The notes beneath the pieces are model-generated. The model saw nothing but the letters and a program-made list of their open reading frames with translations, had not been told where the DNA came from and made no database searches. A stretch of 43,490 nt of DNA from Myxococcales bacterium (lineage in GTDB: Bacteria; Myxococcota_A; Polyangia; Polyangiales; JAFGIB01): NCBI GenBank assembly GCA_028817905.1, contig JAPPOR010000996.1, forward strand, positions 1 through 43,490, in the 5' to 3' direction. How positions within the stretch are numbered: position 1 is the stretch's first letter; each line of letters opens with the position of its first letter. This document shows, one piece after another, positions 5,455-34,366 of this stretch. The position numbers were made by a program, and so were the translations under genes.

Positions 5455-5655
5455 GAGCCTGGCATGGGCGAGTGTAGTGACTGGCAGGTGCGGATGCCAC
5501 AGCCGTAGCCGCATGCCCGCGTCGCACCCCGTTGCGGCCGTCTGCGCAACTCTGCGATGATAGTGAACAGGCCGTTGCGCGGTCGTGAGCTGAAGGAACT
5601 TGGCGTTTCCCCGTCCAACAGGTCGTCGCCCGCGTGGGCATTACGAGGTCGAGTG

Positions 5656-6483: not shown

Positions 6484-6571
6484 TGGGCGAGGGATGCACA
6501 TGCGCCGGGGGGCGCGGGAAGTTGGGTTGCGAGCCTCGCTTGTGCGAAGATTACCAGGACGGGAGCAGAGC

Positions 6572-7246: not shown

Positions 7247-7627
7247 CTAGAACGCGCCCTCGTAGTACTCCATGCGGCCACCCGGCGTGTCGAAGACAAC
7301 GGATGCGGCGTCGAACCGAAGCTCCGAGGTGTCCAGGTCGTGCTGGCTCATCCAGCGGATGGTGCTGGCACGAACGCGGTTTTGTTTTGCGGGCCCAAGA
7401 GTGTCCACTGGTGACAGATGGGTATCGTTGCTGCGCGCGCGTACCTCGCAGACGACCAGCAGGCGGCCCCTCCGTGCCACGATATCGAGTTCGCCACCCG
7501 GTACACGGACATTGCGTCCGACGATATCGAAACCCATGCGCGCCAGATGGGCGGCCGCCAAATCCTCGGCACGCCTGGACAGGGCTTGCTTCGCCGAGGC
7601 TTGCGCTCTGCGGCTGCGTGAGGTCAC
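7247..7627 (-). CDS. YraN family protein (UPF0102)
   Basis: A 126-residue member of the YraN/UPF0102 family, which has a restriction-endonuclease-like fold and no settled function. Diagnostic features are AEDLAAAHLARMGFDIVGRN near the N-terminus, then GGELDIVARRGRLLVVCEVR with the conserved acidic residues, and the downstream stretch KQNRVRASTIRWM. In the family the Glu-Val-Lys position is usually Lys; here it is EVR. I chose a GTG start at 7627, with GGGG 7 bases upstream, because it gives the usual family length; a TTG at 7699 would add 24 residues. It lies downstream of the cysteine-rich lipoprotein on the same strand. In many bacteria the gene sits near rnhB and rsmI, which is not the case here. 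Confidence 0.88.
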   Translation of the reverse strand: MTSRSRRAQASAKQALSRRAEDLAAAHLARMGFDIVGRNVRVPGGELDIVARRGRLLVVCEVRARSNDTHLSPVDTLGPAKQNRVRASTIRWMSQHDLDTSELRFDAASVVFDTPGGRMEYYEGAF

Positions 7628-7822
7628 GCGGCCGCCCCGAGATCGGATGAGGTTACTCGCTTGGGCCCATGTCTCACCAACTCGCGGGCCCTCGCACAAC
7701 CGCTCGAGCCCACAGCGCCATCGCCCCGGTCGCGAACATACAACGAGTATTCCCTTCCCCCACCGAAACCCCTGTGAACTCGATCGCTTGCACGATCATC
7801 ACACGTGTTGGTGAGATGCGGG

Positions 7823-8290
7823 TTAGCGGCTTATCGTGCCGGTGCGTACACAGTAGCTGCCCTGCACGCCGGGTCCTCCGCGCCGAAGGACCGGCTGGCA
7901 GCTGAAGCCATCAGGGCAGTCGCACTCTGCGAAGTCATCGCTCGGTGCGTCGCACCGGCAGGAGCAGTAGATGCGGTCGAACACGTCCTGCTCGGTTGCG
8001 CATCGTTTTTCGACGCACGTCCGGTCGTCGGGTGGGCAGATCTTCTCGACGCACTCGGAACCGGGGTCACCGCCCAACTGATAAACGAGACATACCCGCG
8101 TCTCACACTGGACCGAGCTGGACTCGACGTACGCCTCGCGGTCGTCAAACCCGTTCTCCGGAACCTGTTCGGGCAGACAAGGGGCTCCGACGTCGGGCTC
8201 GGCACAGCCGGCTGCGAAGACCGCCAGCAGGGCCGTCAATAGGAAGGACGCCATGAGATGGTTCAGGTCGACTCGCACGTATGCCCTCAT
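7823..8290 (-). CDS. Cysteine-rich lipoprotein
   Basis: A 155-residue predicted lipoprotein. The N-terminus has arginines at 2 and 6, a hydrophobic core and a lipobox (AVFAAGC, lipidated Cys at about 29). The mature part holds 14 further cysteines in about 126 residues, including the clusters YCSCRC and ECDCPDGFSC, which suggests up to seven disulfides and an oxidising, extracytoplasmic location. The start at 8290 is kept because a later ATG at 8254 would lose the positive N-region; neither has a strong ribosome-binding site. A TATAAA box on the minus strand (8311-8316) could be part of its promoter. Small Cys-rich lipoproteins of this style are common in myxobacteria; no function is known to me. 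Confidence 0.75.
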   Translation of the reverse strand: MRAYVRVDLNHLMASFLLTALLAVFAAGCAEPDVGAPCLPEQVPENGFDDREAYVESSSVQCETRVCLVYQLGGDPGSECVEKICPPDDRTCVEKRCATEQDVFDRIYCSCRCDAPSDDFAECDCPDGFSCQPVLRRGGPGVQGSYCVRTGTISR

Positions 8291-8653
8291 GTTCGGATTT
8301 TGGACTTCACTTTATACCCAAGACTGGTACGGTCACACCGGCATTGCGTGCCAGCGGAACGACAGCGGCCGCACTTGGGTGGAGGTGGGATGTTCTCGGA
8401 CCGCGGCGCACCTGAGGCTATTTTGCGCAAATATGGGTGTCAAGCGCGCGAAACGTCGCTGGGCGATTCTTGCACACGTCAGCGTTTTCCCTTGACAATC
8501 GGATCCGCGCCTTCTTATGATGGCCTGCGCTGAGCCCTCTAAGCCTATGAAATTGCAGCTGAATTGGGCGACGGTCACAACTTCCCACACTTGCCGCTTC
8601 GCTTCGGAAGTGATCCCGAACGGATAGTCGTCGGCCGATGATGGAGACAATCG
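8291..8653. other. Divergent intergenic region (363 bases)
   Basis: This gene-free stretch separates the leftward Cys-rich lipoprotein from the rightward glt-like operon. It holds the strong rightward promoter at 8492-8521 and a possible leftward -10 box at 8311-8316. The leader from the predicted transcription start (about 8528) to the first ATG is about 125 bases. I see no reading frame with coding character, and no riboswitch or repeat that I can name. Confidence 0.6.
8492..8521 (+). promoter_or_regulatory. Sigma-70-type promoter of the glt-like operon
   Basis: A perfect -35 box TTGACA (8492-8497) is followed after 18 bases by TATGAT (8516-8521), five of six matches to the -10 consensus. 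Such a site is rare by chance in DNA this GC-rich. It points at the first gene of the glt-like cluster (ATG 8654). Confidence 0.7.
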
Positions 8654-10306
8654 ATGTGCAACACCCGAACACTTAGTTGGGCCCTTGTGTGGGTCGTAGC
8701 ACTAGGGAGCGCGCAAGCGACCGCGCAGGACATGCAGTTCGGCCTGGAGGAAACGGGGGCTGCCCCCGTGGGGCCGCCGGCGGAGGGGCCGCCCTCCGAG
8801 GCCTTGGCCAATGCCTTGCGACTCTACTCTCAGGAGCGCTATACGGAGGCGGCTGTTCAGTTCCAAAGGGTGGTTGAAGGCGAGACCCCCGATGCGCCGG
8901 CGAACGTGCAGAAGGCACAGTTCTTTCTGGGTAAGGCGCTGTATCACCTCCACTATTACCAGTCGGCTCTGGCGGTGTTTGACGAGATTTCCGAGCTCGG
9001 TCGCGGCCATCTCTTCTTCGATCAGACGCTACAGTGGCTGGCGCAGCTGGCTTCGCAGTTGCCCGAGCCAGCCGGCATCATCGACAAGGTGGGCCGCTTC
9101 GGCGTTGACCAGTTGGCCCAGTTCAATACGGATGACAACGCGGACCTGTACAACCAGCTGCTCTACGTCATGGGTCGCTCCAAATACAATGCGGGCGACT
9201 TTCAAGGCGCGATAGAACTCTTCAAGCAGGTCGATAGCGAGAACCGCTGGTACGTGAAGGCACGCTTCTTCGAGGGGATCTCGTATATTCGCATGCGTCG
9301 AGCCCAACCGGCTGCCGCGGCGTTCCGCGAGATCATCGAGGCCGTCGAAGACGGCGACGTCGCCGGGGTGGAGGACGCAGACCGAATGGTGGATCTGGGC
9401 TGGATTTCCCTAGCCCGCGTCTACTACACGGCAGCGAACAAGACCACGCCGGACGGGGAGCGCGAGGTGGACGGTGTTCTACTCGGCAACGCGGTCGAGG
9501 CCTGGACCAAGATCGAAAACGACAGCGAGTACTGGCTGGACTCGCTGTTTGAAGCCTCCTGGGCGTTTTTCCTTGCGGATGAGTACTCGCGTGCCTTGGG
9601 GAATGCCCACACCCTGTTTTCGCCCTATTTCAAGGAGTCCTTCTATCCCGAGGCGATGGTGCTCAAGGCGGTGGTCTTCTTTACCAACTGCCAGATGGCC
9701 AACGCCACGGCCGTCGTGCAGCGGTTCCATGAGCGCTACGATCCGGTGAAGGTGAAGCTCGACGAGCTCCTGCAGAAGTACCAGGACAACGCGGCCTTCT
9801 TCAGCTTCCTTCAGCAGATTCGCTCTGGGGATGCGAACTTGCCCCCGGAGATTCGAGGTATCGTGACGTCGGCTCTCTCAGACCGCGCGGTCCTTTCCAA
9901 TCTCGAGTACGTAAAGCTACTCGAGGAAGAGGAAAAGCAACTCAAGGACGCACCCTCGCAATTTTCCGCGTCGTCGCTGGGCCAGCGTATTTTGCAGGAC
10001 ATCATGGTGGCCAAGTCGTTTGCGGTGGACCAGGCGGGGGACATTGCCAAGGGTCGCTACAATCGATTGATTCGCGAGATGCAGGACCTCTCCAACCAGA
10101 TTGACACGGTGGAGATCGAGGTACTCAACTACGAGCGGGGTCAGATCGACGCCAAGATCAAGAATCAGATGACGGCTGCCGCGGAATCGACTGGCGGTCA
10201 GGTCTATGTGTCTCCCGAGCACAATGTCTGGCCCTTCAACGGTGAGTACTGGCGCGATGAGCTGGGCTATTACCGCCAGGAAGTCACCTACAGGTGTGGA
10301 AGGTAA
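8654..10306 (+). CDS. gltC: GltC/NfsC-like periplasmic TPR protein
   Basis: A 550-residue exported TPR protein, first gene of the cluster. GGAG lies 7 bases before the ATG. The signal peptide ends near residue 24-25 (QATAQ/DMQF). TPR-like helical pairs fill about residues 50-340, for example RLYSQERYTEAAVQFQRVVE, YHYQSALAVFDEI-type segments and SKYNAGDFQGAIELFKQVD. The middle is helical, and the C-terminus ends in an aromatic-rich element, WPFNGEYWRDELGYYR, which I recall as typical of GltC/NfsC proteins. In M. xanthus GltC is a periplasmic TPR protein associated with the outer-membrane part of the gliding complex. In the nfs locus the gltC-like gene directly precedes the gltD-like gene, as here. 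The next gene starts 2 bases after its stop. Family assignment is from memory of architecture, not a search. Confidence 0.68.
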   Translation: MCNTRTLSWALVWVVALGSAQATAQDMQFGLEETGAAPVGPPAEGPPSEALANALRLYSQERYTEAAVQFQRVVEGETPDAPANVQKAQFFLGKALYHLHYYQSALAVFDEISELGRGHLFFDQTLQWLAQLASQLPEPAGIIDKVGRFGVDQLAQFNTDDNADLYNQLLYVMGRSKYNAGDFQGAIELFKQVDSENRWYVKARFFEGISYIRMRRAQPAAAAFREIIEAVEDGDVAGVEDADRMVDLGWISLARVYYTAANKTTPDGEREVDGVLLGNAVEAWTKIENDSEYWLDSLFEASWAFFLADEYSRALGNAHTLFSPYFKESFYPEAMVLKAVVFFTNCQMANATAVVQRFHERYDPVKVKLDELLQKYQDNAAFFSFLQQIRSGDANLPPEIRGIVTSALSDRAVLSNLEYVKLLEEEEKQLKDAPSQFSASSLGQRILQDIMVAKSFAVDQAGDIAKGRYNRLIREMQDLSNQIDTVEIEVLNYERGQIDAKIKNQMTAAAESTGGQVYVSPEHNVWPFNGEYWRDELGYYRQEVTYRCGR

Positions 10307-19430: not shown

Positions 19431-22400
19431 GTGTCGGACAACGACGGTAGCGTCAAGGATGAGTCCAAGCAGGAAGTCGAACGCCCGGAGGGGAGTGACG
19501 GCGATGCCGAGCCCCGAGAACTGACCGACGAAGACCGGGCCGCGCTCGCGGCACTGGACGAGAAACTGGAGAAGTTCCAGGCCCAGAAGCGGTGGTCGGA
19601 TGTGATCAAGACCACGCTCGCCAAGGCGGAGCTGGTGGTCGATCCGGCCGAGAAAGTGGCTCTCTTCGGGGACGCTGGTCGGCTCTATCTCGAGCGCTCG
19701 TCGAACCAGGCTGAAGCTATCAAGTGCTTTCGCAAGGTGCTCGAACTGGACGCGGGCAATCTCGAAGCGATCGAGCGCCTCAAGGAGATGTACGAGAAGC
19801 GGCGGGATTGGGAACGCCTTGTAGGCGTAATGCGTTCGGAGTGCGCACTGCTCGATCCCGAGGACCAGGCGTTCCGGCGTGTGGAGATCGCGCGCCTTGC
19901 CACGGAGCGCCTTCGTAAGCCAGCGGTCTGCATCGAGCTGTGGCAAGACGTGATCGAGAGCGAGGCGGACAATCCAGAGGCGCTGGACGCCCTTTCCGGC
20001 CTGTACGAGCGCGCGCGGCAGTGGGACGCGCTGGCTGAGGTGCTCGAACGCAAGAGCCAGCAGCTCACCGATAGCGGCGAGCTTGCCCAGTTGCTCGCCA
20101 AGCTGGGTGGCGTGTACGGGGACAAGCTCAAGCAGGACGAGGGGGCTGTGGCCGCGTATCAGCGGCTACTGGACATCAACCCAGACGATCGGCGGGCGCA
20201 GGAACAGCTGAAGAAGCGCTATGTTGCTCTTGAGGCTTGGGAAGAACTGGAGGCGTTCTACGCCGCCACAGGCAAGTGGGACGAGCTCATTCGGACCCTA
20301 GAAAGAGCGGCCGAAGCCCAGGATGCGGAGGCGGGCAAGCGTATCGATTTGCTGTTTCGTGCAGCCCGCCTGTGGCGTGACAAGAAGGAAAAGCCTGATC
20401 GCGCCGCTCGGGCCTACGAGAAGGTGCTAGCGCTGGACGCCAGCAACCTCGATGCAGCTGACGAGCTCGTGCCGATCTATGAACAGGCCGGCGATGCCAA
20501 GAAGCTCGTTCCAGTCTATCAGATACGGCTCAAACACCTCGAGGACCCGGTCGAGCGGGTCTCGTTGCTGCGAGAGTGTGGCTTGATGTACGAAGAGAAG
20601 CTGCGCGATCCGCAATCCGCCTTCGACAGTTTCATCGAGGCGTTCGTGCTCGATCCGAGTCAGGAGATCTTGCGCGAGGATCTCGAGCGCATGGCCGCAA
20701 AGGTCAAGGACTGGGACCGAGTCTTTGATGCGTACACCAAGGCGATAGATTCGTCTTCAGACCCCGAGGAGGCGAGCGATCTGCGGGTGTACTACGGCCG
20801 TATGCTGGCGCAAGCAGGTCACGTCGAACAGGCCATCGAACAGTTTCGCGCGGTGTACGACGAACGCCCTGAGGACCGCGCTGCTATCAGTGCGCTGGAG
20901 GACCTCTACGGGCAGACCGAGAACTTTACTGAACTACTCGGCGTGCTGCAGCGTCGCGCGGAGTTCGAGGACGACCAGGACGAGCGCCGGAAGCTGGCCT
21001 ACGCGATTGCTGCCCTGCACCACGAAAGGCTGAACAACCCGGATGCGGCCATCGATGCCTACCAGGCGATTCCCCTGGATTTCGGCGAGCAAGAGATCGA
21101 GGCGTATCAAGCGCTTGATCAGTTGTATGCCGCCCAGGAGCGTTGGGAGGACCTCGCGCGAACGCTGGAGCATCGGATCGACCTCGGCCCTGACGGTGAC
21201 GATGAGCTCGCAGAGCTCAAGTTCCGCTTCGCCAATGTGGGCCTAGAGCACCTGTCGCAGGCTCCCGTCGCGCTGGAGCAATACCGCGAAGTGCTCATGA
21301 TTCGTCCCGGGCACGCCGGGGCGGTGAGTGCGTTGGAGGGACTGCTCGCGAACCCAGAGCTGGGGGGGAGCGCTGCGGCTATCCTGGAACCGCTCTATGA
21401 GGAGCGTGGTGACTGGGAAAACCTCGTCAAGGCGCTGGAAGTCTCGCTCTCGGCGACGGAGGAACCGGCGGAACGCCTGAATACGATCACCAAGATCGGT
21501 GAGCTGTATGCGGAGCGCGTAGGCGACACGAACCTTGCCTTCGAAGTGTATTGCCGCGCCCTGCGTGAAGACCCCTCGAACCCGGGTGTTGGAGCGCGCC
21601 TGGAAGAGCTTGCCAAGGCACAACACCGCCTGGGCGATATGGTCAAACACCTGGATGACTTGGCCCGCGAACGCTCAGACGCGGAGCTGTCCAAGTCTCT
21701 GTGGATGAAAGCCGCCAAGCTTCAGGACGAAGAAATCGGCGACGTGGATGCGGCGGTTCGCCTGTACCTCAGTGCCTTGGAGCTGGACGACGCCGACCCG
21801 GAAGTGTTGGCTGCTCTGGAGGAGCTGTACCACCGCAGTGAGCGGTGGCGTGACCTGCTGGACATTCTTCGCCGGCGAGCGTCGCACGCAGCCGACTCGG
21901 AACAGCAGAGCCAGGTGCTGTCGCAGATGGCGTTCATCTACGATGAAATGCTTTCGGACCCCGAGGCGGCGATCCGTGTCTACGGCGAGATTCTCGAGAA
22001 CGATCCAACTAGTGACAACGCGCTTCGTCAGCTCGACAGCCTCTACGAGCGCCAGCAAATGTGGGCCGAGTTGGCGGACAATGTTGCAAGGCAGCTCACG
22101 CTCGTAGCCGATGAAGAACGCCGCATTGGCCTCATGCTGAAACTGGGGAATTTGCGCGAAAGCCGCATGGGCGCGGTCGAGTCCGCGGTGGAGATCTATC
22201 GCGAGGTGCTAGACAACGATCCGCTGCAGCGGGATGCGATGGCCGCCCTCGAGCGCATTCTTCAGGACCCCGCGCATCAGTTGCAGGTAGTCGAGATACT
22301 CGAGCCCCTCTACCGCGATGCGGGCGAGTCGCACAAGCTCGTGGGCATCCTTCAGATTCAAGTCACCGGGAGCGATTCTCCTGACCGTCGCGTTGACCTG

Positions 22401-25400
22401 TTGCACCAGATGGCCGAGCTCTACGAGGTCAGCCTTGATGATTTGCAGAACGCGTTCACGTGCTACTCACGATCACTTGCAGATGATCCGAGCAACCCGA
22501 GCACCCAGGAGCAGCTCGAGCGAATCGCGGCCGGTGCGGGGGCGTGGGACCAACTGGCGCAGGTGTACGAGCAGCAGGTGGCAGCTGTCGAGGACACTTC
22601 CCTAAGGGCGGGGCTGCTGGCGAAAGCTGCTGAGGTGCGCGAGGAGCGCGTGGGCGATCATGTCGCTGCTATCGCGCTCTATCAGCAGGTGCTTGAGCTA
22701 GACGACCAGAACATGGAGGCGGCGACTGCGTTGGAACGCCTGTATCAAGGCACCGAGCAGTACGAGGAGCTCGCTAGCATCCTCTTGGTGAAAGCGGGGC
22801 TGCTTGATGTTCCCGCGGATCGGCGAGAATACCTGTTTCGCGCAGCGGCCCTGTACGACGAGCTTCTCAGTCGGCCGCAGGAGGCAATTCATGTATACCA
22901 GCGCGCGCTGGAGGCCGAGCCAGACGACCACGCTGCGCTGGACAAGCTGATCGAGCTGCATCTCCGCCTGCAGCAGTGGGAGGAGGTGTTGGGAGTCTAT
23001 CGGCAGAAGGCGGATGTCGTCGACGACCTCGACCAGAAGAAAGCGCTGTATGCGCACGTGGGTGCGGTCTACGAGCACGAACTCCAGAATGTCGAGAAGG
23101 CCATCGAGACCTATCAGCGAGTTCTCGAGATCGATCCTGAGGATGCTGTTGCGATTGGGCGTCTCGACGCGCTCTACCTTGTCAGTGAGAACTGGGACGA
23201 GCTCCTGTCCATTCTCGACCGAGAGTCGGATCTCGCGCCCACCGCAGAAGCCGCGATCGACTTTCGGTATCGGATCGGCGAGCTCTTCGAGCTTCGCCTG
23301 AACGACGCTTTCCGTGCCGTCGAGTGCTACCGCGACATCCTCGATATGGCGCCTGACCACGCTTCGACGCAGGCCGCGCTGGAGCGCATGATTGGAGCGG
23401 GGCAAGAGGTGGTCCCGGCGGCTCAGGTTCTCGAGCCCATCTATCGTGCCTCGGGCGAGTCGGCGAAGCTGGTCAACGTTCTCGAAGTACTCATATCGAA
23501 GGAGGAGGATCCCCTTCGCAAGGTAGAGCTGCTGCACCAAGTCGCAGAGCTGCACGAGATTCACCTAGGGCAGCCCTCGGCCGCTTTCGACGCCTTCGCG
23601 CGCTCCCTGCAGTACGACAACCGAAACCTCTCCACCCTGGAAGCGCTCGAGCGGTTCGCGGACAGCTTGGCAGAATGGACCCAGCTCGGCGCCTTGTACG
23701 ACCACGAGATCGCCAAGCTGCGCGAGGAGGATCCCGACAGCGCCGCCGACTTGGCGCTACGACTTGCCCGCATCTTCGAGGTTCAGCTCGGCGACGTTGA
23801 CAATGCGATCGCTCGTTATCGGGTGGTTGTGGAGGCGGACCCGGCTCAAGCGGAATCGCTGGCGGCCCTCGACCGCCTCTACGAGGCGACCTCTCGATGG
23901 ACGGAACTTGCGGAGGTTCTCGAGCGCGAGGCCGAAGTTGCGCCAAGCCCCGACGACGCGCTGGACCTGCAATATCGACTCGGTCGCTTGCAACAGGTGC
24001 ACCTGGGCGACGTTTCAGGCGCAATCGCGCAGTTTGCCGCTATCTTGAACGCTGCACCGGACCACGTCGAGTCGGTTGCGGCGTTGGAAGGGTTGTTCGT
24101 CAACGGCGTAGAAATTGCGCGCGTGGCTGAGGTCCTGGAGCCGCTTTATCGCATGCACGAAGACTGGCCAAAGTTGGTTTCAGTCAAGGAGGCCCGGCTG
24201 CGCTTTGAGTGGGATGCAGAGGAGCGCGTGGCGGCCATGCACCGGATAGCCGAAATCGCCGAAGACCAAGCTGGCGATGCCTATACGGCATTCACGTGGA
24301 TGCAGCGTGCACTGATGGAGGACCCGGAGCACGACCACTCTTGCGACGAAGTCGAGCGCCTGGCTTCCGCGGTTCAAGGATGGGGCGTACTGGCTCATAC
24401 GTACGCCGGCATCGCCGAAGCGAGCCCCTCAGATGAGGTCCGGGTCGCGATCGGAAAGCGACTCGCGAGAGTACTGCGCGTCGAGTTGAATGACGTAGTT
24501 CAAGCGGAGGAGGCCTATCGCTTCGTCCTGCCCATGGCGACTGCAGACCGCGAGGTGCTCGAGGAACTGGACGCCATATACTCCGAGCATGGTGCCGGCA
24601 ATGCTCTGGCGCAGATCCTGAGGCTGCGGGTCGAATCCGCGGAGGATACGCATGAGCGCGTTGAGTTTTCACATCGCCTGGGCGGTGTTCTCTACAACCA
24701 GGTCGGTGCCATCGATGATGCGGTGACCGTCTACACGCAGATTCTCGACGAGCTGGATACGGAGCATGAAGAGACCATCAAGGCGCTGGAGAACATATAC
24801 ACGGTTACCGAGGATTGGCGGCAGCTGTACCAGGCCTACGATCGAGAGCTGACGGTTGCGCTGGGTGATTCGGCACAGGCAGAGATACTTGGCCGAATGG
24901 CGTACCTTGCATCGACCCGCCTGGAGCAGCCTGAGCGGGCTGCAGATCTGTTGAAGCGCGTGCTGGATCTGCTGGGAGAGGAGCCGGACGCGCTCAACGC
25001 CCTGGGCAATCTCTATGCGTTGCAGGAGAACTGGACTGACCTGGTAGACGTACTCGAGCGCGAAGTGGCGGTTACGGACAGCGATAGCCATCGCATCGTC
25101 CTGTTCCAAGACCTTGGGAATATTTGGTACGAGAAGCTGAGCCGCGACCGCAGCGCTCTTGAGAGCTGGGAGCGAGTCCTCGATCTCGATCCAAGCAACG
25201 CCGCGGCGCTGCTATCCATCGCGCGGGTTCACCGCTCTGCGGAGTCGTGGTCGGACCTTGTTGACACGCTGCACAGAATCGTCGATGCGGGCAGGGGCAA
25301 TCTCGATGATGCCAGTGTCGAAGCGGTGCTCATGGAGCTTGGGGCGCTTTATGCGGGCCGTATGGATCAGCCTGCCGACGCGATCGAGCAGTATCGAAGC

Positions 25401-28400
25401 GCGCTCGAGGTCAACTACCGAAACTTCGCCGCCATGGATGCGCTTGAGCAGCTCCACGAGGCCCAGGAGCAATGGGAAGAAGAGATCGCTGTCAAGGAGC
25501 AGCGTGTGGCAGCGCTCGAAGAGCCGCCCTTGAAGATCGCGGTGCTACTGGATATCGCCAGTATCTGGGAGGAGAAACTCGAGGAGGCGGATCGTGGCAG
25601 AAGTTCGCTGGAGTCTGTGCTCGAACTCGATTCTCTTCATGACTTCGCCTTTGAGCGTCTGGAGCGACTTCATCGAGAGCACAGCCGCTTCGAGGAGCTG
25701 ATCGATCTGTTTCTCGGCCGGGTGGAAGCAAGTGAGGATATTGACGCTCGTGTTTCGTTGTTGCGCCAAGTGTCAGAAGTGTACGAGCGCGACATGGGTG
25801 ACAAGTCGCAAGCGTTCGATGCGCTCTTGTTGGCTTGGCAGCAGGACTTTACTAATGAGCAGAGTGCCGAGGGCCTGGAGCGCATCGCCGGTCTTACCCA
25901 GCGGTGGGCCGAGGTGCTGACAACAGCCAACGCGGTGCTTCAGGAGCTTCCGGCGGAGGAAGTCGAGGCCCGAAACGCGATCTGCGTTAAGTGTGCCAGG
26001 TGGTACGGCAAGGAAGGGCACCCCGAGTACGCCATCCCCTACCTGCAGCAGGTGTTGGCCGTCGACCCTGTCAACCGCCCGGCGGTCGCGCAAATGGCCG
26101 AACTTCACCGCGAGACTCAGGACTTTCAGACCTATGGGCATTTGCTCGGCAAGCTGGCGGAGATGACGGAGGATCCTGCCGAGAAAGCGGACGTTCTGGT
26201 CCGGATCGGTGAGTTGAACGAGCAGCAATTTGGTGCCCCGGATCAGGCAGTTTCGCACTACTCCGCTGCCCTGGCCGAGGTTTCCGAGCACTTGGGGGCT
26301 TTGCGCGCGCTGGAGCGCATCTATCGTGGTCGCGAACAGTGGACCGAACTTGTGGAGGTGTTGGGCCGCAAGGTTTCGGCGCTTGATGACCGCGACGCGA
26401 TGTTGGAGGCGAAGCTTGAGCTCGCCGAGGCCTACGAGGACCGCCTAGGCGACTTCGGGAAGGCGACCAAGCAGTACCAGGCGGTTTTGGAGGAGGATGA
26501 AGACAGTCTGAGGGCCCTTAAGGGGCTTGAGCGTCTCTACGCCCAGCAGCAGTCATGGCAGGACTTGCTTGCTGTGCTCGAACGTCAGCTCGAAGTGGTC
26601 ACCAACGAGCGCGATCGTGTCGGTCTACTCATTCGTTTGGCTGCGATGTGGGAAGAGGAGTTCTTGAAGCCAGAAAAGGCTGCCGAACGGCTCGAGCAAG
26701 TGGTCGACATCGATCCCGATCATTCGGAAGCGTTGCACGGGCTCGCGCGCTTGTACCGCCAGCTGCAACGCTGGGACGCGTTGGTCCGGACGTTCGAGCG
26801 GCACATCGAGGCAACGCCCGAGCGTGGCGAAAAGGCACGACTGTACGCGGGTATTGGTGAGGTTTACCGGGACGAGTTGAAGGAGCCCGATGAGGCCATC
26901 GACGCTTTCTTGAACGTGACGGCCATCGAGCCTGACTCGGTGCCGGCGCTAGAGGCGTTGTCGCAACTGTACGAAGGACGCCAAGAGTACAGCATGGCGC
27001 TGGATACCATGGACCGGCTCACGGGCCTGGTCGATCAACCTGAGGCACGCGTCAACCTGCTGTATCGGATGGGTAAGCTCTATGAGGGCGAACTCGACGA
27101 TCGTGTCACCGCAGTCGATCATTTCGAACGCGCAATAGACATCGACCGGACGCACCTGGCTTCGTTGCAGGCGATGCGAGACATCCACATGCTGGAAGGC
27201 GACTACAACGCCGCCTCACGTGTCCTTCAACAAGCGGTCGAGGTCGAGGAGAGCGATCGAAAAAAGGCGGCGCTCTTAGTGGAGCTGGGGCGTGTCTTCG
27301 ACGCCAACCTCGACGAGCACGAACGTGCTATCGAGTGTTTCGAACAAGCCCATAGCCTGGATGCGGACAATACCGATGCGGCCCTCCCTTTGGTGGACGA
27401 CTACACGAAGGCAGAGCGTTGGCAGGAGGTGGAGCCGCTTCTGCACATCCTGACACGACTTTGCAGTCGCTTTCCGGCAGAAGAGCAGCAACGCCTCTGG
27501 TTCATGTCGGGTGAGTGCGCCGACCGGCTCGGCAATGACGAGGTGGCTATCAAGAGCTACGGCCAGGCGTTCGCGCTGGATTCGCAAGATATTCCGTCGC
27601 TTTCCGGCCTCGCTGCGGCCCACTATCGCAGCAAGAGCTGGGAGGAAGCGTTCAAGCACTACCAGATGCTACTCGTGCATCACCGGGAAGCGCTCGGGAG
27701 TGACGAAACGACCGATGCGTTTTATCGGTTGGGGGTCATCAAGCGCGAGCAGGGTGATCGGCGCAAGGCGCTGAATATGTTCGAGAAAGCGCTTGAGGAA
27801 GATTCGATACATAGGCCGACCTTGGAGGCGATGGTCGAGCTCTATCGTGGCAACAACGAGTGGGAGCAGGTCATCCACTTCAAGAAGCGGATCCTCGATG
27901 CTGTGGACGACGTCGTGGAGAGATTCGAGCTCTACTCTGAGATCGGGGCCATCTGGCAGGAAAAGCTCGAGAACCCCGCAGCTGCTATCGAAGCCTTCAT
28001 CGAGGCGTCGGCGTTGCGGCCGGATGACCACAAGATGCTCCACAAGCTGCTGGGGCTATACCAGGTCACCGGTCAGTGGGAGGCCTTGGTCGACGTCATC
28101 GATCGGGTAAGCGAACTCGACGACCGGCCGGCGGTCCAGGCCAAGAACGCTTATACGATTGGGGTCATCCTGCGCGACGAGCTGAAGGACGCGGGCGGCG
28201 CGTTGGAGCGTTTCACCCAAGCTCTCGATCTGGACCCACTCGGCCAGCTTAAAGCGTTCGAGGCGGTTAACAAGATTCTGACCGTTCAGAAAGACTGGAA
28301 GAACCTGGAGCGCGCATATCGCAAGATGCTGCATCGCGTGACCGGCAAGGGGGACGAGGCGCTCGAGTACAATCTCTGGCACAGCCTCGGGGTCATCTAT

Positions 28401-29543
28401 CGCGACCGCCAGCGCAACCTGGAGGCAGCCGCAGAGGCGTTCGCGATGGCGTCCCGGATGCAGCCGGGCAACATGCAGGAACATCAGATCCTCGCGGAGC
28501 TCTACGGGCGCGTTCCAGGCCGCATTCAGGATGCCATCAACGAGCACCAGGTCCTGCTACGGAACGATCCGTATCAGGCCGACTCGTATCGCGAGCTGTA
28601 CAAGCTCTACCAGGGAGCGGGTCAGTACGATCGCGCCTTCTGTGTGGCCGCCGCGCTGTCATTCCTGCAGAAGGCTGACGCGGAGCATCAGCAGTTCTAC
28701 CAGCAGTACAAGGTCGAAGGGCCGATCCGGCCCAAGTCACGGCTCACCGACGAGCTGTGGGTTAAGGAACTGTTCCACGCCGACGAGGATCTCCTGGTCG
28801 GGAAGATTTTCGAGGCCGTCACTCCCGCCATGCTGCAATGGCGCAAGGTTAGCGACAGGAGTCTGGACCTCAAGAAGAAGCAGCAAATCCCCGACCTGAT
28901 GAATACGACCGTGGCCTTTGCTCGATCGTTCGGCTTCATCACCCAAGTCTTCGGGCTCGTCTTTACTCCGAGGCTGTTCGTTTGCCCCGACCGTCCCGGC
29001 GGTCTGGAGTACGGCACCACGATCCCGCCTGCAACAGTGTGTGGCAGCGCGCTGTTGTCGGGGATGAGTCCCGTGGACGTGATGTTCGTCATCGGGCGCC
29101 ATCTCGCGTACTACCGGGGCGAGCACTACATGCGCACGATGTTTCAGACCAAAGATGAATTGAAGCTCGTGTTGGCGGCGTCCATGCGTATCTCCGGAGT
29201 GGAGATCCCCGATCCCACGGTCGAGACTACCGCCAAGGAGCTCATGGGGAGGATGCAGCCCGTGCAGCTCGAGGTCCTGAAGAAGATCGGCAAGCGGTTC
29301 GCGGATGCCGGCGCCAGGGCGGATATCAAGAAGTGGATGAACGCGGTCGAGTTCAGCGCCTGCCGTGCCGGATTTCTCATCTGCAACGATCTTGCCATTG
29401 CTGCTCGAATGATACAGGCGCTACCCCCCATGGGGGCGCTGGAGATCGGCCCCAAGGACCGGATCCACGACCTGGTCCTATTCAGTGTCTCGGAGCCCTA
29501 CTTCCGCCTTCGCGAAGCCCTCGGCATTCAAATTGGCGGCTAG
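19431..29543 (+). CDS. Giant cytoplasmic TPR protein, GltI (AgmK)-like
   Basis: A 3370-residue protein without signal peptide or membrane helix. The GTG start at 19431 is firm: AGGAGG lies 5 bases upstream. After an acidic N-terminus of about 40 residues the chain is one long TPR-type solenoid. A helix start of the type W-x-x-L (RWEDLARTLE, NWDELLSILD, SWSDLVDTLH, RWDALVRTFE) recurs roughly 40 times at intervals of about 70-80 residues, alternating with AIxxYxxVLExDP helices. The last 290 residues (from about 3080) are different: a folded domain with VDVMFVIGRHLAYYRGEHYM, reminiscent of a zinc-peptidase helix but without HExxH. In M. xanthus the comparable giant is GltI (AgmK), a cytoplasmic TPR component of the gliding machine, located next to gltG-J. 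The match is by size, location and architecture, so the symbol is withheld. The terminator upstream implies its own promoter. Confidence 0.85.
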   Translation: MSDNDGSVKDESKQEVERPEGSDGDAEPRELTDEDRAALAALDEKLEKFQAQKRWSDVIKTTLAKAELVVDPAEKVALFGDAGRLYLERSSNQAEAIKCFRKVLELDAGNLEAIERLKEMYEKRRDWERLVGVMRSECALLDPEDQAFRRVEIARLATERLRKPAVCIELWQDVIESEADNPEALDALSGLYERARQWDALAEVLERKSQQLTDSGELAQLLAKLGGVYGDKLKQDEGAVAAYQRLLDINPDDRRAQEQLKKRYVALEAWEELEAFYAATGKWDELIRTLERAAEAQDAEAGKRIDLLFRAARLWRDKKEKPDRAARAYEKVLALDASNLDAADELVPIYEQAGDAKKLVPVYQIRLKHLEDPVERVSLLRECGLMYEEKLRDPQSAFDSFIEAFVLDPSQEILREDLERMAAKVKDWDRVFDAYTKAIDSSSDPEEASDLRVYYGRMLAQAGHVEQAIEQFRAVYDERPEDRAAISALEDLYGQTENFTELLGVLQRRAEFEDDQDERRKLAYAIAALHHERLNNPDAAIDAYQAIPLDFGEQEIEAYQALDQLYAAQERWEDLARTLEHRIDLGPDGDDELAELKFRFANVGLEHLSQAPVALEQYREVLMIRPGHAGAVSALEGLLANPELGGSAAAILEPLYEERGDWENLVKALEVSLSATEEPAERLNTITKIGELYAERVGDTNLAFEVYCRALREDPSNPGVGARLEELAKAQHRLGDMVKHLDDLARERSDAELSKSLWMKAAKLQDEEIGDVDAAVRLYLSALELDDADPEVLAALEELYHRSERWRDLLDILRRRASHAADSEQQSQVLSQMAFIYDEMLSDPEAAIRVYGEILENDPTSDNALRQLDSLYERQQMWAELADNVARQLTLVADEERRIGLMLKLGNLRESRMGAVESAVEIYREVLDNDPLQRDAMAALERILQDPAHQLQVVEILEPLYRDAGESHKLVGILQIQVTGSDSPDRRVDLLHQMAELYEVSLDDLQNAFTCYSRSLADDPSNPSTQEQLERIAAGAGAWDQLAQVYEQQVAAVEDTSLRAGLLAKAAEVREERVGDHVAAIALYQQVLELDDQNMEAATALERLYQGTEQYEELASILLVKAGLLDVPADRREYLFRAAALYDELLSRPQEAIHVYQRALEAEPDDHAALDKLIELHLRLQQWEEVLGVYRQKADVVDDLDQKKALYAHVGAVYEHELQNVEKAIETYQRVLEIDPEDAVAIGRLDALYLVSENWDELLSILDRESDLAPTAEAAIDFRYRIGELFELRLNDAFRAVECYRDILDMAPDHASTQAALERMIGAGQEVVPAAQVLEPIYRASGESAKLVNVLEVLISKEEDPLRKVELLHQVAELHEIHLGQPSAAFDAFARSLQYDNRNLSTLEALERFADSLAEWTQLGALYDHEIAKLREEDPDSAADLALRLARIFEVQLGDVDNAIARYRVVVEADPAQAESLAALDRLYEATSRWTELAEVLEREAEVAPSPDDALDLQYRLGRLQQVHLGDVSGAIAQFAAILNAAPDHVESVAALEGLFVNGVEIARVAEVLEPLYRMHEDWPKLVSVKEARLRFEWDAEERVAAMHRIAEIAEDQAGDAYTAFTWMQRALMEDPEHDHSCDEVERLASAVQGWGVLAHTYAGIAEASPSDEVRVAIGKRLARVLRVELNDVVQAEEAYRFVLPMATADREVLEELDAIYSEHGAGNALAQILRLRVESAEDTHERVEFSHRLGGVLYNQVGAIDDAVTVYTQILDELDTEHEETIKALENIYTVTEDWRQLYQAYDRELTVALGDSAQAEILGRMAYLASTRLEQPERAADLLKRVLDLLGEEPDALNALGNLYALQENWTDLVDVLEREVAVTDSDSHRIVLFQDLGNIWYEKLSRDRSALESWERVLDLDPSNAAALLSIARVHRSAESWSDLVDTLHRIVDAGRGNLDDASVEAVLMELGALYAGRMDQPADAIEQYRSALEVNYRNFAAMDALEQLHEAQEQWEEEIAVKEQRVAALEEPPLKIAVLLDIASIWEEKLEEADRGRSSLESVLELDSLHDFAFERLERLHREHSRFEELIDLFLGRVEASEDIDARVSLLRQVSEVYERDMGDKSQAFDALLLAWQQDFTNEQSAEGLERIAGLTQRWAEVLTTANAVLQELPAEEVEARNAICVKCARWYGKEGHPEYAIPYLQQVLAVDPVNRPAVAQMAELHRETQDFQTYGHLLGKLAEMTEDPAEKADVLVRIGELNEQQFGAPDQAVSHYSAALAEVSEHLGALRALERIYRGREQWTELVEVLGRKVSALDDRDAMLEAKLELAEAYEDRLGDFGKATKQYQAVLEEDEDSLRALKGLERLYAQQQSWQDLLAVLERQLEVVTNERDRVGLLIRLAAMWEEEFLKPEKAAERLEQVVDIDPDHSEALHGLARLYRQLQRWDALVRTFERHIEATPERGEKARLYAGIGEVYRDELKEPDEAIDAFLNVTAIEPDSVPALEALSQLYEGRQEYSMALDTMDRLTGLVDQPEARVNLLYRMGKLYEGELDDRVTAVDHFERAIDIDRTHLASLQAMRDIHMLEGDYNAASRVLQQAVEVEESDRKKAALLVELGRVFDANLDEHERAIECFEQAHSLDADNTDAALPLVDDYTKAERWQEVEPLLHILTRLCSRFPAEEQQRLWFMSGECADRLGNDEVAIKSYGQAFALDSQDIPSLSGLAAAHYRSKSWEEAFKHYQMLLVHHREALGSDETTDAFYRLGVIKREQGDRRKALNMFEKALEEDSIHRPTLEAMVELYRGNNEWEQVIHFKKRILDAVDDVVERFELYSEIGAIWQEKLENPAAAIEAFIEASALRPDDHKMLHKLLGLYQVTGQWEALVDVIDRVSELDDRPAVQAKNAYTIGVILRDELKDAGGALERFTQALDLDPLGQLKAFEAVNKILTVQKDWKNLERAYRKMLHRVTGKGDEALEYNLWHSLGVIYRDRQRNLEAAAEAFAMASRMQPGNMQEHQILAELYGRVPGRIQDAINEHQVLLRNDPYQADSYRELYKLYQGAGQYDRAFCVAAALSFLQKADAEHQQFYQQYKVEGPIRPKSRLTDELWVKELFHADEDLLVGKIFEAVTPAMLQWRKVSDRSLDLKKKQQIPDLMNTTVAFARSFGFITQVFGLVFTPRLFVCPDRPGGLEYGTTIPPATVCGSALLSGMSPVDVMFVIGRHLAYYRGEHYMRTMFQTKDELKLVLAASMRISGVEIPDPTVETTAKELMGRMQPVQLEVLKKIGKRFADAGARADIKKWMNAVEFSACRAGFLICNDLAIAARMIQALPPMGALEIGPKDRIHDLVLFSVSEPYFRLREALGIQIGG

Positions 29544-30019: not shown

Positions 30020-31549
30020 CTATGTCAGAGCGGCGACGACCGCGGCCTGGAGACGCTTGTCGACGAGGGGCTTGCGGAGCAACCCCCTGGCCCCCTCGCG
30101 GCGCAGGACCTTCTCATCACGCTCGGCCCACTGCCCGGAGATGAACAGGACGCGCACATCCGGGTGGATGCGCCGCATGTGCCGGAAACACTCGCGGCCA
30201 CCCATGCGTGGCATGTCGATGTCGAGTAGGACCAGGTCCGGTGGCCGCTCCCCTTGCGTGAAGAGATCCAGCGCTTCCACACCGTCGACAGCGTACGTAA
30301 CCTTGTATCCGGTGCGTTCGAGCAGGCGACCGGCGCTGCGAGCCACGTCGCGCTCGTCGTCGACCACGAGAATTGACGCATTGCCTTGCAACAGCGGCGC
30401 CGTGGGTTCCAGGTCGATCGTGGCGAGGCTTCCTTCAGCCCTAGCTTCCGAGGCTGGGACGTAGATCCGCACGGTCGTGCCGAGCCCCTCGACGCTCTCG
30501 ACCTCGGCGTGGCCCCCGTGTTCCTTGGCAATGGTTCTCACCGTGGCCAAGCCCAGGCCCGTGCCCAGCTGTCGTCCCTTCGTGGTGAAGAACGGATCGA
30601 AGGCGCGCTTCAGGGTCTCCTCATCCATCCCGACACCGGAGTCCTCGACCGTGATCACCACGTGTGGCTCGTCGGAGGTAAGCGGCAAGTCCGACAGCTC
30701 GCCATGGCTCATGATCGCCGCTCGAATCAACAGTTCACCGCCATCCGGCATCGCGTCGCGGGCATTGATGCAAGGGTTCATGAGCATCTGGTGAAGTTGG
30801 GGCCTGCTCCCGTCTACCACTAGGCTTGGTTGAATGTGGGTCTGGACGTTGATACGGCTCGGCAACAGTCGGCGCACCAGGCGAATCACTTCCTTGCACA
30901 GCTCCGAGATGTTGACGGGGCGGTGTACATCGTCTCCGCGTCTCACGAAGCCGGCCAGGCGTCCCGTCAGTTCGGTGGCGCGTGCTGTCGCAGTGTCCAG
31001 CTCGGCGAGGCATTCCTGAATGTCGGGATCAGAGAGACAGGTCTCTCCCCGCATCCCCTTGATGAAATCCAGGTTGGCGCTCAGTACGCTGAGGAGATTG
31101 TTGAAGTCGTGTGTGATGCCGGCGCTCAAGCGCCCGATGGCTTCCATCTTCTGGGCTTCGTGAAGATGCTCCTCCATGGGGTCTTTGAGCGTGAACAGAA
31201 GCGTAACGCGCGGCCCCAGCTGGATGCGGTCTCCGTCTTCCAAGGCCCGGTGGTCGGCGGTCTCGCCGTTGACTGCGGTGCCGTTGCGGCTGTCCAGGTC
31301 CTGAATCTCGTAGTGACCGTCACCTGCCTGGATAAGCTGGGCGTGCCTTCTCGAAACGCCACGGTGGTCGATCTGGAGTGTACAGGTTGCGCTGCGGCCA
31401 ATGGTCGTAGGCCCAGAGATTGGCACCTTCCGTCCCGCGCGAGGGCCCGCGATGATGACCAGGCAAGCTTGTCTTTCGACGTTGTCGCCTCGTTTGTCCG
31501 GCCGGCGAAGGTTGAGTAGCGTATCTTCTTCTTGCACTTTGATCGACAT
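30020..31549 (-). CDS. FHA domain - histidine kinase - receiver hybrid protein
   Basis: A 509-residue soluble hybrid kinase. Start 31549 overlaps the stop of the MinD-like gene by one base (TGATG), so translation is coupled. Domains: FHA (about 29-106, IGRSATCTLQIDHRGVSRRH, DLDSRNGTAVNG); dimerisation/phosphoacceptor helix (GRLSAGITHDFNNLLSVLSA, His at about 147); ATPase domain with N-box NPCINARDAMPDGG, DSGVGM, FDPFFTTK and GTGLGLATV; then a receiver (ILVVDDE, phosphoacceptor Asp at about 443 in LVLLDIDMPRMGG, Lys at about 493). There is no membrane helix, so the input is cytoplasmic, presumably phosphothreonine recognised by the FHA domain. One oddity is Pro instead of the usual Leu in the N-box (MNPCINARD). 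It could receive signals from Ser/Thr kinases, abundant in myxobacteria. Confidence 0.92.
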   Translation of the reverse strand: MSIKVQEEDTLLNLRRPDKRGDNVERQACLVIIAGPRAGRKVPISGPTTIGRSATCTLQIDHRGVSRRHAQLIQAGDGHYEIQDLDSRNGTAVNGETADHRALEDGDRIQLGPRVTLLFTLKDPMEEHLHEAQKMEAIGRLSAGITHDFNNLLSVLSANLDFIKGMRGETCLSDPDIQECLAELDTATARATELTGRLAGFVRRGDDVHRPVNISELCKEVIRLVRRLLPSRINVQTHIQPSLVVDGSRPQLHQMLMNPCINARDAMPDGGELLIRAAIMSHGELSDLPLTSDEPHVVITVEDSGVGMDEETLKRAFDPFFTTKGRQLGTGLGLATVRTIAKEHGGHAEVESVEGLGTTVRIYVPASEARAEGSLATIDLEPTAPLLQGNASILVVDDERDVARSAGRLLERTGYKVTYAVDGVEALDLFTQGERPPDLVLLDIDMPRMGGRECFRHMRRIHPDVRVLFISGQWAERDEKVLRREGARGLLRKPLVDKRLQAAVVAALT

Positions 31550-32430
31550 CAGTGCTTGTTCTGGAGAGTGGATGGCTCTTCGCATTCAGGATGCGAATGC
31601 AGTTGTGAGCGTGGTTGGTTGGACAAAGCGCGCGTTCGAAGCTGACGTTCGATCCAGTCGCGCCAGAAGCTTTGCTGGCGTCGCGGGAGGCCTTCGAGCT
31701 CTGATGCGAGACGGGCTGCCATGGCCCTGATCCCTCGGGCAAAAGGGGACTCGCCATCGTGTTCGAGAACCGCGGTGCGCGCCTGCACAGCCGAGCAGAC
31801 GGCGGGGTCTGATGGAAGGCTTCCGGCAAGGGCGAGAGACAACCCCAAGAACCTGTCGCTTACCTCTTCGAGCTTCTCGTGCACATTGGCAGCCACAGCG
31901 GCCGTTGCCGCTTGGTTGACGATCAGCGACATGGAGTCGACGCCGTAGCTTCGGTTGAGGATCTTGATCATTGCATAGGTGTCGGTCAGTGCCGTGGGTT
32001 CGGGAACCGTGACCAACAGCACGCGATCGGCTAGGTCGTTGAAGAAGAGAACATTTTCGCCGATGCCTGCGCCGGTGTCGATGAGCAGTGCATCGTATCC
32101 TTCGCAGAGCCCGTCGAGTTCATCCACCAGACGGGTGCGGTCGGTGTCGCTCAGGCGCTCAAGTCGTAGTACCCCGGAGTGCGCCGGCAGCAGATCAAGA
32201 TGATCGGATACGTGAACGAGGATGTCTCTCAGAGATAGGTCGTTCGTGACTACGTCGTACAGTGTGCGTTCCGCATGAATCCCCAATAGGACATCGACAT
32301 TGGCGAGGCCCATGTCGGCGTCGAGCAGCAGTACGCGCAGGCCTCGCTTGGCGAGCGCCAGGGCCAGATTGATCGAGATGTTGGTCTTCCCAACTCCGCC
32401 CTTGCCGCTTGTGATCGAAATCGACTTCAT
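31549..32430 (-). CDS. MinD/FlhG-like P-loop ATPase
   Basis: A 293-residue ATPase of the MinD/ParA superfamily, closest in motif style to FlhG/YlxH (FleN). The deviant Walker A is SGKGGVGKTNISINLALALA (residues 7-26), followed by LLLDADMGLANVDVLLGI (about 35-52) and LLIDTGAGIGENVLFF. These proteins dimerise on ATP and position or count cellular machines. Start 32430 overlaps the preceding GGDEF stop as ATGA; a longer frame to 32586 would run through the GGDEF gene end and is rejected. The C-terminus (about 255-293) is basic, QSFWRDWIERQLRTRAL, and could be a membrane-binding or partner helix. No flagellar genes are visible, so classical flagellar number control is unlikely here; positioning of another polar machine is a plausible inference. 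Confidence 0.9.
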   Translation of the reverse strand: MKSISITSGKGGVGKTNISINLALALAKRGLRVLLLDADMGLANVDVLLGIHAERTLYDVVTNDLSLRDILVHVSDHLDLLPAHSGVLRLERLSDTDRTRLVDELDGLCEGYDALLIDTGAGIGENVLFFNDLADRVLLVTVPEPTALTDTYAMIKILNRSYGVDSMSLIVNQAATAAVAANVHEKLEEVSDRFLGLSLALAGSLPSDPAVCSAVQARTAVLEHDGESPFARGIRAMAARLASELEGLPRRQQSFWRDWIERQLRTRALSNQPRSQLHSHPECEEPSTLQNKH

Positions 32431-33239
32431 TTTAGTAGTGCATCCTTTTCCGCGCGAGTGACCCCGCCGGCGGGGAGGGCGGGGCTTTGCCCGTGCGCGA
32501 CGACCCGGTTGCGCCCCGACGCTTTCGCTTGATAGAGGGCTGCATCGGCTTGTTCGATGAGTTCTCGGGGCGCTGTGGGAGCCCAACCCGGGTCAAAGGT
32601 CGCGATTCCTGCGCTGACAGTTAGCCGTAGCTGGTGTTGCTCCGTTTCAAAACTATGGTCCTCCACCGACGCCCGCAGCCGCTCGGCCGCCGTGGCCGCC
32701 CCGCGGGCGTCCGTGCCGGGCAAGATGATGGCGAACTCTTCGCCTCCGAAGCGCGTTGTCACATCGTCTGTCGTACGCAGCGCATCCAGCATGATCTGTC
32801 CGAGAATCTGCAGTACCTGGTCCCCAGCTACATGTCCGTACTTGTCGTTTACCTGCTTGAAGTGATCGGCGTCGATGATCATGACCGACAGGGGGCGGCG
32901 GTCGCGGGTGGCGCGATGCAGTTCTTGTCTCAACCGGTGATCGAAGTAGCGACGGTTGAAGAGGCCGGTTAGACCGTCTTCCATCGATACCGTACACAGT
33001 CGGTCGATGATCCACTGGATGTATGCTGTGCGGTCCGGCCCTGTGGCGGGAGGCGGAGGTGTCGCCCCTTCCGGTGCGATGGTACGAAGGGCGATGCTCA
33101 GATCGAGGTCAGCGGCTGCGGCGAAGCCAGCTAGGATGCGTTGGGCGAGATCCGAACCTTCCCGATCAGGGAATTGGCGCGCGTACTCTGCCTCCAGAGC
33201 CTCCCAGGCGGTCTGGCTATTGGCTGGCGCTGCCTTCAT
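32427..33239 (-). CDS. Diguanylate cyclase (GGDEF domain)
   Basis: A 270-residue protein with an N-terminal helical part (about 1-80) of unknown fold and a C-terminal GGDEF domain. The active-site loop reads GGEEF (about 165-169), preceded by MEDGLTGLFNRRYF and IIDADHFKQVNDKYGH, all expected for cyclic di-GMP synthesis. The usual inhibitory RxxD, which should end 5 residues before the GG pair, is shifted: the text reads RTTDDVTTRFGG, so product inhibition may be lost. Start 33239 (ATG, AGG 5 bases upstream) is preferred to a TTG at 33308. It is the first gene of the operon with the MinD-like ATPase (4-base overlap) and the FHA kinase, and divergent from the REC-GGDEF gene. Confidence 0.9.
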   Translation of the reverse strand: MKAAPANSQTAWEALEAEYARQFPDREGSDLAQRILAGFAAAADLDLSIALRTIAPEGATPPPPATGPDRTAYIQWIIDRLCTVSMEDGLTGLFNRRYFDHRLRQELHRATRDRRPLSVMIIDADHFKQVNDKYGHVAGDQVLQILGQIMLDALRTTDDVTTRFGGEEFAIILPGTDARGAATAAERLRASVEDHSFETEQHQLRLTVSAGIATFDPGWAPTAPRELIEQADAALYQAKASGRNRVVAHGQSPALPAGGVTRAEKDALLK

Positions 33240-33359: not shown

Positions 33360-33418
33360 TTCAAGTTCGGTGGGCGTTTATGGTTTTCGCCCGTTTTTCC
33401 AGAACCTCGAACGGACGC

Positions 33419-34366
33419 ATGGTGGAGACCACTTGCTTGATCATAGACGACTCCGAAGGGGTTAGGAACCGACTGATCGAGGGACTCTCGTCAGCACAAG
33501 TGTTCGATCGGTTCATCACCGCCGAGGATGGACTTGAGGGGTTCCGCAAAATGAGGTCCGAGGCCGTCGATCTTGTGCTGTGCGACCTGGACATGCCGGC
33601 GTTCGACGGTTTCAAGTTCCTCCGTATGAAGTGTGGCGACCCGAGTCTGTCTGAGGTTCCCGTGATTCTGTTGACCGGACGTGAGGACGTGGATAGCAAG
33701 GTACGGGGACTGTCGGCTGGGGCATCGGACTACTTGACCAAGCCCTTCGACCAGTTGGAGCTGATCGCGCGCGTGAACGTGCACATGAACCTCAAGCGGC
33801 TGCGGGATGAGCTGCGCGAGAAGAACGAGGAGCTCGAACGGTTGGCGCGAACAGACGAGCTTACTGGCGTTGCCAACCGGCGCTACCTGATGGAGTGCCT
33901 GGAGCAGGAGTTCGCTCGATCGCAGCGATATCAGCGCCCTTTCAGTCTGCTGATGGCGGACCTGGATCACTTCAAGCGAATCAACGACTCGTACGGCCAT
34001 CAGGTCGGTGACGACGTCCTGGTGCGAACGGCCGCAGCGATGCGCAGCACGCTGCGACAGAACGACATCGTTGGTCGCTATGGGGGCGAGGAATTTGCGC
34101 TGATGCTGCCCGAGACCGAGGTCGAAGGGGCCCTTACGGTAGCTGAGCGGTGTCGCCAGATGATCGAGGAGCTGGTCGTCGAGGTGCAGGGGGTGCGCGT
34201 GCCTGTGACCGCGAGCCTGGGGCTTGCCACGAACCCCAGCGCATCGATCGCCTCAGTGGACGCGCTCATGCGTGTCGCGGACGGGGCGCTGTACGAGGCG
34301 AAGCGTGCTGGACGCAACCGAGTCGTAGCTGCCAGCGTCCCGGAAGCTGGCCCGGATCATCCATGA
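33419..34366 (+). CDS. PleD-like response regulator, REC-GGDEF
   Basis: A 315-residue response regulator with diguanylate cyclase output. The receiver spans about 1-120: LIIDDSE acidic pocket, phosphoacceptor Asp at about 56 in LVLCDLDMPAFDG, Thr in ILLTGRED and Lys at about 108 in YLTKPFD. A coiled linker (LRDELREKNEELERLARTDE) leads to the GGDEF domain with DELTGVANRRYL, MADLDHFKRINDSYGH, a canonical inhibitory site RQND (about 213-216) and active loop GGEEF (222-226). Phosphorylation would be expected to drive dimerisation and c-di-GMP synthesis. Start 33419 is chosen because it begins just before the receiver; the ribosome-binding site is weak and ATG 33380 would add 13 residues. A short GC hairpin with TTTTT lies in the leader (33372-33398). 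The neighbouring FHA kinase is a candidate partner. Confidence 0.92.
   Translation: MVETTCLIIDDSEGVRNRLIEGLSSAQVFDRFITAEDGLEGFRKMRSEAVDLVLCDLDMPAFDGFKFLRMKCGDPSLSEVPVILLTGREDVDSKVRGLSAGASDYLTKPFDQLELIARVNVHMNLKRLRDELREKNEELERLARTDELTGVANRRYLMECLEQEFARSQRYQRPFSLLMADLDHFKRINDSYGHQVGDDVLVRTAAAMRSTLRQNDIVGRYGGEEFALMLPETEVEGALTVAERCRQMIEELVVEVQGVRVPVTASLGLATNPSASIASVDALMRVADGALYEAKRAGRNRVVAASVPEAGPDHP

Follow-up and report, generated by a model that had tools for sequence, protein, structure and literature searches.

Does a compact run of three overlapping genes act as one unit, and what might that unit control? The question is posed by a stretch of 43,490 nucleotides from a Myxococcales bacterium (contig JAPPOR010000996.1; "the window" means this whole stretch), whose minus strand encodes a diguanylate cyclase with a GGDEF domain, a MinD-like ATPase, and a protein that joins an FHA domain, a histidine kinase, and a receiver. 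A sequence-only reading had taken the trio for a single system that might place or time an adjacent Glt-like machine. We find that the conserved unit is the GGDEF plus MinD-like pair and not the trio. For this pair we propose a reading to which we give an even chance: an FlhG-derived ATPase may have a diguanylate cyclase as partner, which would dock by its C-terminal tail, and the two together would control where or when cyclic di-GMP (c-di-GMP) is made.

The conserved unit is a gene pair

The gene layout is as first described: both stop/start overlaps, an ATGA between the GGDEF and MinD-like genes and a TGATG between the MinD-like and third genes, were read directly from the sequence (Table 1). 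The domain assignments hold as well. The first protein matches GGDEF (PF00990) with an E-value of 2e-48, the second AAA_31 (5e-21, with ParA and CbiA weaker), and the third FHA (5e-19), HATPase_c (1.5e-21), and Response_reg (6e-22). Motif reading agrees with Pfam and recovers GGEEF, the RxxD inhibitory site (I-site), a deviant P-loop (SGKGGVGKT), the phospho-acceptor H of the kinase with its N and G boxes, and the receiver D.

The search covered 57 relatives and larger samples of 379 genomes from the phylum, 184 from the order, and 318 from the class, together with 274 class and 53 order genomes of a gammaproteobacterial metagenome-assembled genome (MAG) met in the first scan. The pair occurs in eight genomes, five belonging to Myxococcota and three to the class of the gammaproteobacterial MAG, and its conservation thus extends past the strain. 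Carriers from the same order are the window genome (G000), G004 (same family; public MAG SB9155_S4_bin_12, L008), and G015; G840 and G865 belong to the same class; G397 (MAG OFTM102) and two members of its order, G873 and G907, make up the gammaproteobacterial-class group. Over the alignment, the cyclases are 37–47% and the ATPases 39–47% identical to the window proteins. The ATPase start overlaps the GGDEF stop by 4 nt in six of the eight pairs and by 1 nt (TAATG) in another, and a 7-nt gap separates them in the last (-4, -4, -4, -4, +7, -4, -1, and -4 nt for G000, G004, G015, G840, G865, G397, G873, and G907, respectively). Overlaps of 1–4 nt are common in bacterial operons; the recurrence of this first overlap across phyla is more than chance.

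At 28 loci of the best other matches in the phylum, no GGDEF homologue was found in the flanks, and most of these loci have an adjoining FlhF homologue, as expected for a flagellar FlhG. Plasmid and viral collections returned ordinary FlhG/FleN-type or weak matches only. One contig of the viral collection (L198, IMG/VR, 164 kb) carries a MinD/FlhG-like ATPase with 31% identity.

The ATPase is an FlhG relative that lacks the enhancer helix

The closest solved structures to the window ATPase are FleN and FlhG, both by sequence (phmmer against PDB, 1.3e-57 and 1.7e-48, respectively) and by fold (Foldseek, FleN with E 8e-28 and TMq 0.81). The models for MinD (TIGR01968, 120.5 of 212.9 bits; TIGR01969, 135.1 of 201.75 bits) and for BcsQ (TIGR03371, 55.3 bits, cut-off 157.85) stayed below their cut-offs. 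In phylogenetic trees, all eight pair ATPases lie among FlhGs, and six of them group in a single clade within FlhG (100/99). Those of G840 and G865, from the same class, stand apart with weak support, and a single clade of eight was not rejected (p-AU 0.41). Distinct from the pair ATPases are the flagellar FlhGs of the window genome (L002) and of G004, which fall with the order's other FlhGs. Sequence, fold, and trees thus agree with the FlhG type that the sequence-only reading had supposed, and we assign the window ATPase to the FlhG/FleN family.

With FlhG and FleN (PDB codes 5j1j and 4rz2), the pair ATPase shares the fold, the deviant P-loop with its signature lysine, a DTGAG motif, and a C-terminal segment containing FW. 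The residue pair in this segment is FW in seven pair ATPases and YW in one, and the FW segment is common to many FlhGs. In contrast to FlhG and FleN, the pair ATPase has neither the DQAxxLR enhancer helix nor an flhF neighbour, and it is coupled to a diguanylate cyclase. FlhG stimulates FlhF through the DQAxxLR helix (PMC12826062). Many FlhF-adjacent FlhGs have this helix, that of G004 itself among them, but none of the eight pair ATPases does: each opens with MK or MR and goes straight into the first strand ahead of the P-loop. No FlhF homologue was found beside the other pair copies. A C-terminal membrane-targeting helix was considered for the window ATPase, where a helix is predicted at residues 255–270 (predicted local distance difference test (pLDDT) about 60–67), but was dropped as a claim because its hydrophobic moment is not significant.

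The cyclase carries a pair-specific tail

By its domain and by its catalytic and I-site motifs, the first protein is predicted to be a diguanylate cyclase. The GGEEF and D-x-D-x-F-K..N-D columns are invariant in the alignment of all eight pair cyclases, as are Arg-155 and Asp-158 of the RxxD inhibitory site. Around the I-site (RTTDDVTTRFGGEEF), the stretch from RxxD to GGEEF is one residue longer in the three cyclases of the same order than in the other five, and feedback inhibition may differ.

Every pair cyclase ends in a short tail, preceded by a linker of variable length after the GGDEF domain. The eight tails read GGVTRAEKDALLK (window), TGVSSEERDGLLG, DAVSLEEKDALLR, TGVTMDERMELLG, AGVSAEERALLFK, TGLSSSEREALAS, TGLSSSEREALL, and TGLSVSEREGLMS. 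The tail is found in 8/8 pair GGDEFs versus 0/15 other GGDEF open reading frames (ORFs) from the loci compared, a contrast that carries no formal probability since the eight sequences are related by descent. In the AlphaFold model of the window cyclase, the linker is disordered (pLDDT about 51) and is followed by a short helix at residues 262–269 (pLDDT about 65), which, at low confidence, has the look of a docking peptide.

The third gene is a local addition

The trio as a conserved unit was rejected, as the downstream gene differs among copies: only the pair part of the proposed trio recurs, and among the eight genomes an FHA-kinase-receiver gene lies 3' of the pair in the window genome alone. 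The pair is followed by a receiver-kinase and then a receiver-HDOD gene in G004, by EcsC in G015, and, after a gap, by a receiver-receiver-GGDEF gene in G397; in the remaining copies an unrelated or a convergent gene comes next. Two-component and c-di-GMP genes adjoin the pair in G000, G004, and G397 only, and the protein encoded divergently to the pair in G397 has a C-terminal FHA domain. This suggests that signalling inputs have been added locally to the pair.

Over its length, the third protein of the window shares 40–47% identity with FHA-kinase-receiver proteins that many genomes of the order encode; these are Myxococcota hybrid histidine kinases in which the FHA domain is N-terminal. Unlike the window locus, none of 19 loci of these relatives has a MinD-like or tailed GGDEF gene in its 1.5-kb flanks. 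The relatives were therefore rejected as pair carriers, and the GltG matches there reflect the common FHA domain. In the window genome, the FHA-kinase-receiver protein is a local add-on that probably feeds a phosphorylation signal into the operon.

At L137 (G000:C349, 463–2274, minus strand) and at L140 (G004:C634, 9332–11673), an HDOD-type gene adjoins another MinD-like ATPase, not that of the pair; the site is within the flagellar cluster in G000 and near an FHA-kinase-receiver gene in G004. This is a second recurring pairing of a MinD-like ATPase with a signalling gene.

Relation to flagella and to the Glt machine

The proteins scanned in the window contain no flagellar domains, as the sequence-only reading had noted for the vicinity, but the statement does not extend to the genome. 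A separate contig (C349) carries a flagellar cluster with its own FlhG, whose ORFs read as FlgL, FlgK, FlgJ, FlgI, FlgH, FlgA, a FliA-type sigma factor, FlhG, FlhA, FlhB, and FliR; FlhA was confirmed by model. FlhA and a separate FlhG are present in seven of the eight pair genomes, and G907 (completeness not given) has neither. A flagellar protein was found near one pair copy, that of G004 (L138), where HDOD proteins and a Flagellin_IN (FliD-like) protein adjoin the pair at 3417–8833; the pair is thus not always next to flagellar genes. The pair is thus linked to flagellated lineages, but not strictly.

The suggested link to Glt did not survive. The glt-like genes of the window lie on the opposite strand, convergent to the trio, and no Glt homologue was found in the 9–19 kb around the seven other pair copies.

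Proposed mechanism and alternatives

We propose that the functional unit is a two-gene module in which the cyclase is co-translated with the FlhG-derived ATPase and would take the place of FlhF as its partner. The cyclase tail would dock on the ATPase, and the ATP-bound ATPase dimer would join two cyclase subunits, hold them at a defined membrane site, or both, so that c-di-GMP synthesis would be local and confined to the ATP state. In the window genome, the FHA-kinase-receiver added to the operon would probably supply a phosphorylation signal. A stronger version appears rather unlikely to us: that the ATPase, a nucleotide-switched dimer, binds the tail and by dimerizing activates the cyclase at one selected place on the membrane, which would tie c-di-GMP synthesis directly to a MinD-type ATP cycle.

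Several precedents bear on the proposal. ParA/MinD ATPases generally get their specificity from a partner protein via a short terminal peptide (PMC10241942). The degenerate GGDEF domain of BcsE binds and recruits the MinD-like ATPase BcsQ in cellulose secretion (PMC7439463), and thereby provides a precedent for a GGDEF–MinD contact. In Shewanella putrefaciens, HubP positions the c-di-GMP enzyme PdeB via a GGDEF surface to which its far C-terminal region belongs (PMC9061725), but HubP is a landmark protein rather than an ATPase, and PdeB is a phosphodiesterase with an inactive GGDEF domain.

Other points weigh against the proposal. The pair is rare, with three carriers among the 184 genomes of the order, and the GGDEF-domain tree neither supports nor rejects a single origin of the eight cyclases (p-AU 0.20). 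The tail has few residues, and confidence in its predicted helix is low. Several flagellar FlhGs likewise lack a clear DQA motif in a simple motif scan, and loss of the helix is therefore by itself no proof of a new partner. The C-terminal FW segment is at most a candidate for membrane binding, as its hydrophobic moment is not above that of shuffled sequences. What was read directly for the pair is its linkage, the near-overlap, the tail, the absent helix, and the intact catalytic motifs; from these we infer a physical partnership through the tail, recruitment or dimerization (or both) of the cyclase by the ATP-bound ATPase dimer, and local c-di-GMP synthesis.

The same observations can be explained in other ways. 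The pair ATPase could be a flagellar regulator, an additional FlhG acting on C-ring proteins, on a FleQ-like activator, or on the flagellar FlhF to limit or time flagella; the cyclase would then be its c-di-GMP input. Its nesting within FlhG would fit, as would the co-occurrence with FlhA and a separate FlhG in seven of the eight pair genomes, compared with an FlhG-range match in 14 of 57 genomes of the relatives sample, and so would the Flagellin_IN and HDOD neighbours in G004, given that an HDOD gene also lies in the flagellar cluster of the window genome. However, G907 has the pair with no FlhA and no FlhG match, the FlhF-activating helix is missing from the pair ATPases, and most copies have no flagellar gene within 9–19 kb, so that a flagellar role seems on the unlikely side. 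Alternatively, the two genes might simply be neighbours in an operon, with the cyclase and the FlhG-like ATPase on one transcript but not coupled physically or functionally. Both families are large, short overlaps are widespread, and the contact between the two proteins is one that we infer; but the same gene order and a near-identical junction are kept across two phyla at 37–47% protein identity, and the conserved tail is specific to the pair, which makes mere company improbable.

Little credence is also due to a system resembling BcsE-BcsR-BcsQ, in which a GGDEF scaffold and the ATPase would assemble or place a polysaccharide-secretion machine fed by the cyclase activity. BcsE sets the example, and BcsRQ structures are among the fold matches, albeit far below FleN. 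Whereas the GGDEF domain of BcsE is catalytically dead and binds c-di-GMP, the pair cyclase is not degenerate and has catalytic motifs and a special tail; the ATPase fails the BcsQ model (55 bits versus a cut-off of 158), and no bcs, cellulose, or polysaccharide genes were noticed beside the copies read. Very improbable, finally, is that the operon positions or times the Glt gliding machine. GltC-, GltE-, and GltG-like genes are indeed found at 8.7–18.2 kb of the window, all below curated cut-offs, but they converge on the trio with a 10-kb TPR gene between, none of the other copies has them nearby, and the pair also occurs in gammaproteobacterial-class genomes.

Other features of the window

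Divergently from the trio, a REC-GGDEF gene shares with it a common intergenic region of ∼150 bp flanked by two c-di-GMP synthases; it is a possible second source of c-di-GMP. A scan for promoters and terminators gave results at chance level. A single 3370-amino acid TPR-repeat protein is encoded at 19431–29543 (plus strand), convergent with the trio and downstream of the GltC/GltE/GltG-like genes, and close to the window start lies an FtsY/SRP54-type GTPase by Pfam (2251–3690, minus strand).

Table 1. Positions of the pair, the third gene, and their parts in the window
Feature	Coordinates	Strand	Remarks
Diguanylate cyclase (GGDEF) gene, 270 aa	32427..33239	-	ATG at 33239, TGA at 32429-32427
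Cyclase parts			N-terminal helical region of ~85 aa without Pfam match; GGDEF domain, residues 87-245; linker; conserved C-terminal tail
Cyclase C-terminal tail, residues 258-270, proposed docking peptide	32430..32468	-	GGVTRAEKDALLK; 8/8 pair GGDEFs
ATGA stop/start overlap, GGDEF/MinD-like	32427..32430	-	Same 4-nt overlap in 6/8 pairs
FlhG-derived MinD-like ATPase gene, 293 aa	31549..32430	-	ATG at 32430, TGA at 31551-31549; no N-terminal enhancer helix
TGATG stop/start overlap, MinD-like/FHA-kinase	31547..31551	-	Not kept in other copies
FHA-histidine kinase-receiver gene, 509 aa	30020..31549	-	Lineage-specific third gene; ATG at 31549, stop ending 30020
FHA domain, residues 48-112	31214..31408	-	G-R, S-R-R-H, and N-G motifs; Pfam and motif reading
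Histidine kinase core, about residues 125-366	30452..31177	-	THDFNN from 146; HATPase_c 249-366
Receiver domain, residues 393-504	30038..30373	-	
REC-GGDEF gene, divergent, upstream of trio	33398..34366	+	Outside conserved pair, without tail

Implications

The papers searched contain no description of the combination, as the sequence-only reading had supposed, and no account was found in which an FlhG-type ATPase is coupled to an active cyclase, most subscription journals lying outside the search. What appears here is an FlhG-type ATPase with a likely new partner. The pair provides an example of such an ATPase that lacks the FlhF-activating helix and is retained alongside a flagellar FlhG in seven of the eight genomes. 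Many ParA/MinD ATPases are "orphans" for which no partner is known (PMC10241942), and how c-di-GMP synthesis is kept local in cells has yet to be explained. The two-gene unit with its pair-specific tail touches on both and offers a case open to direct test, with a positioning ATPase and a c-di-GMP synthase as likely partners.

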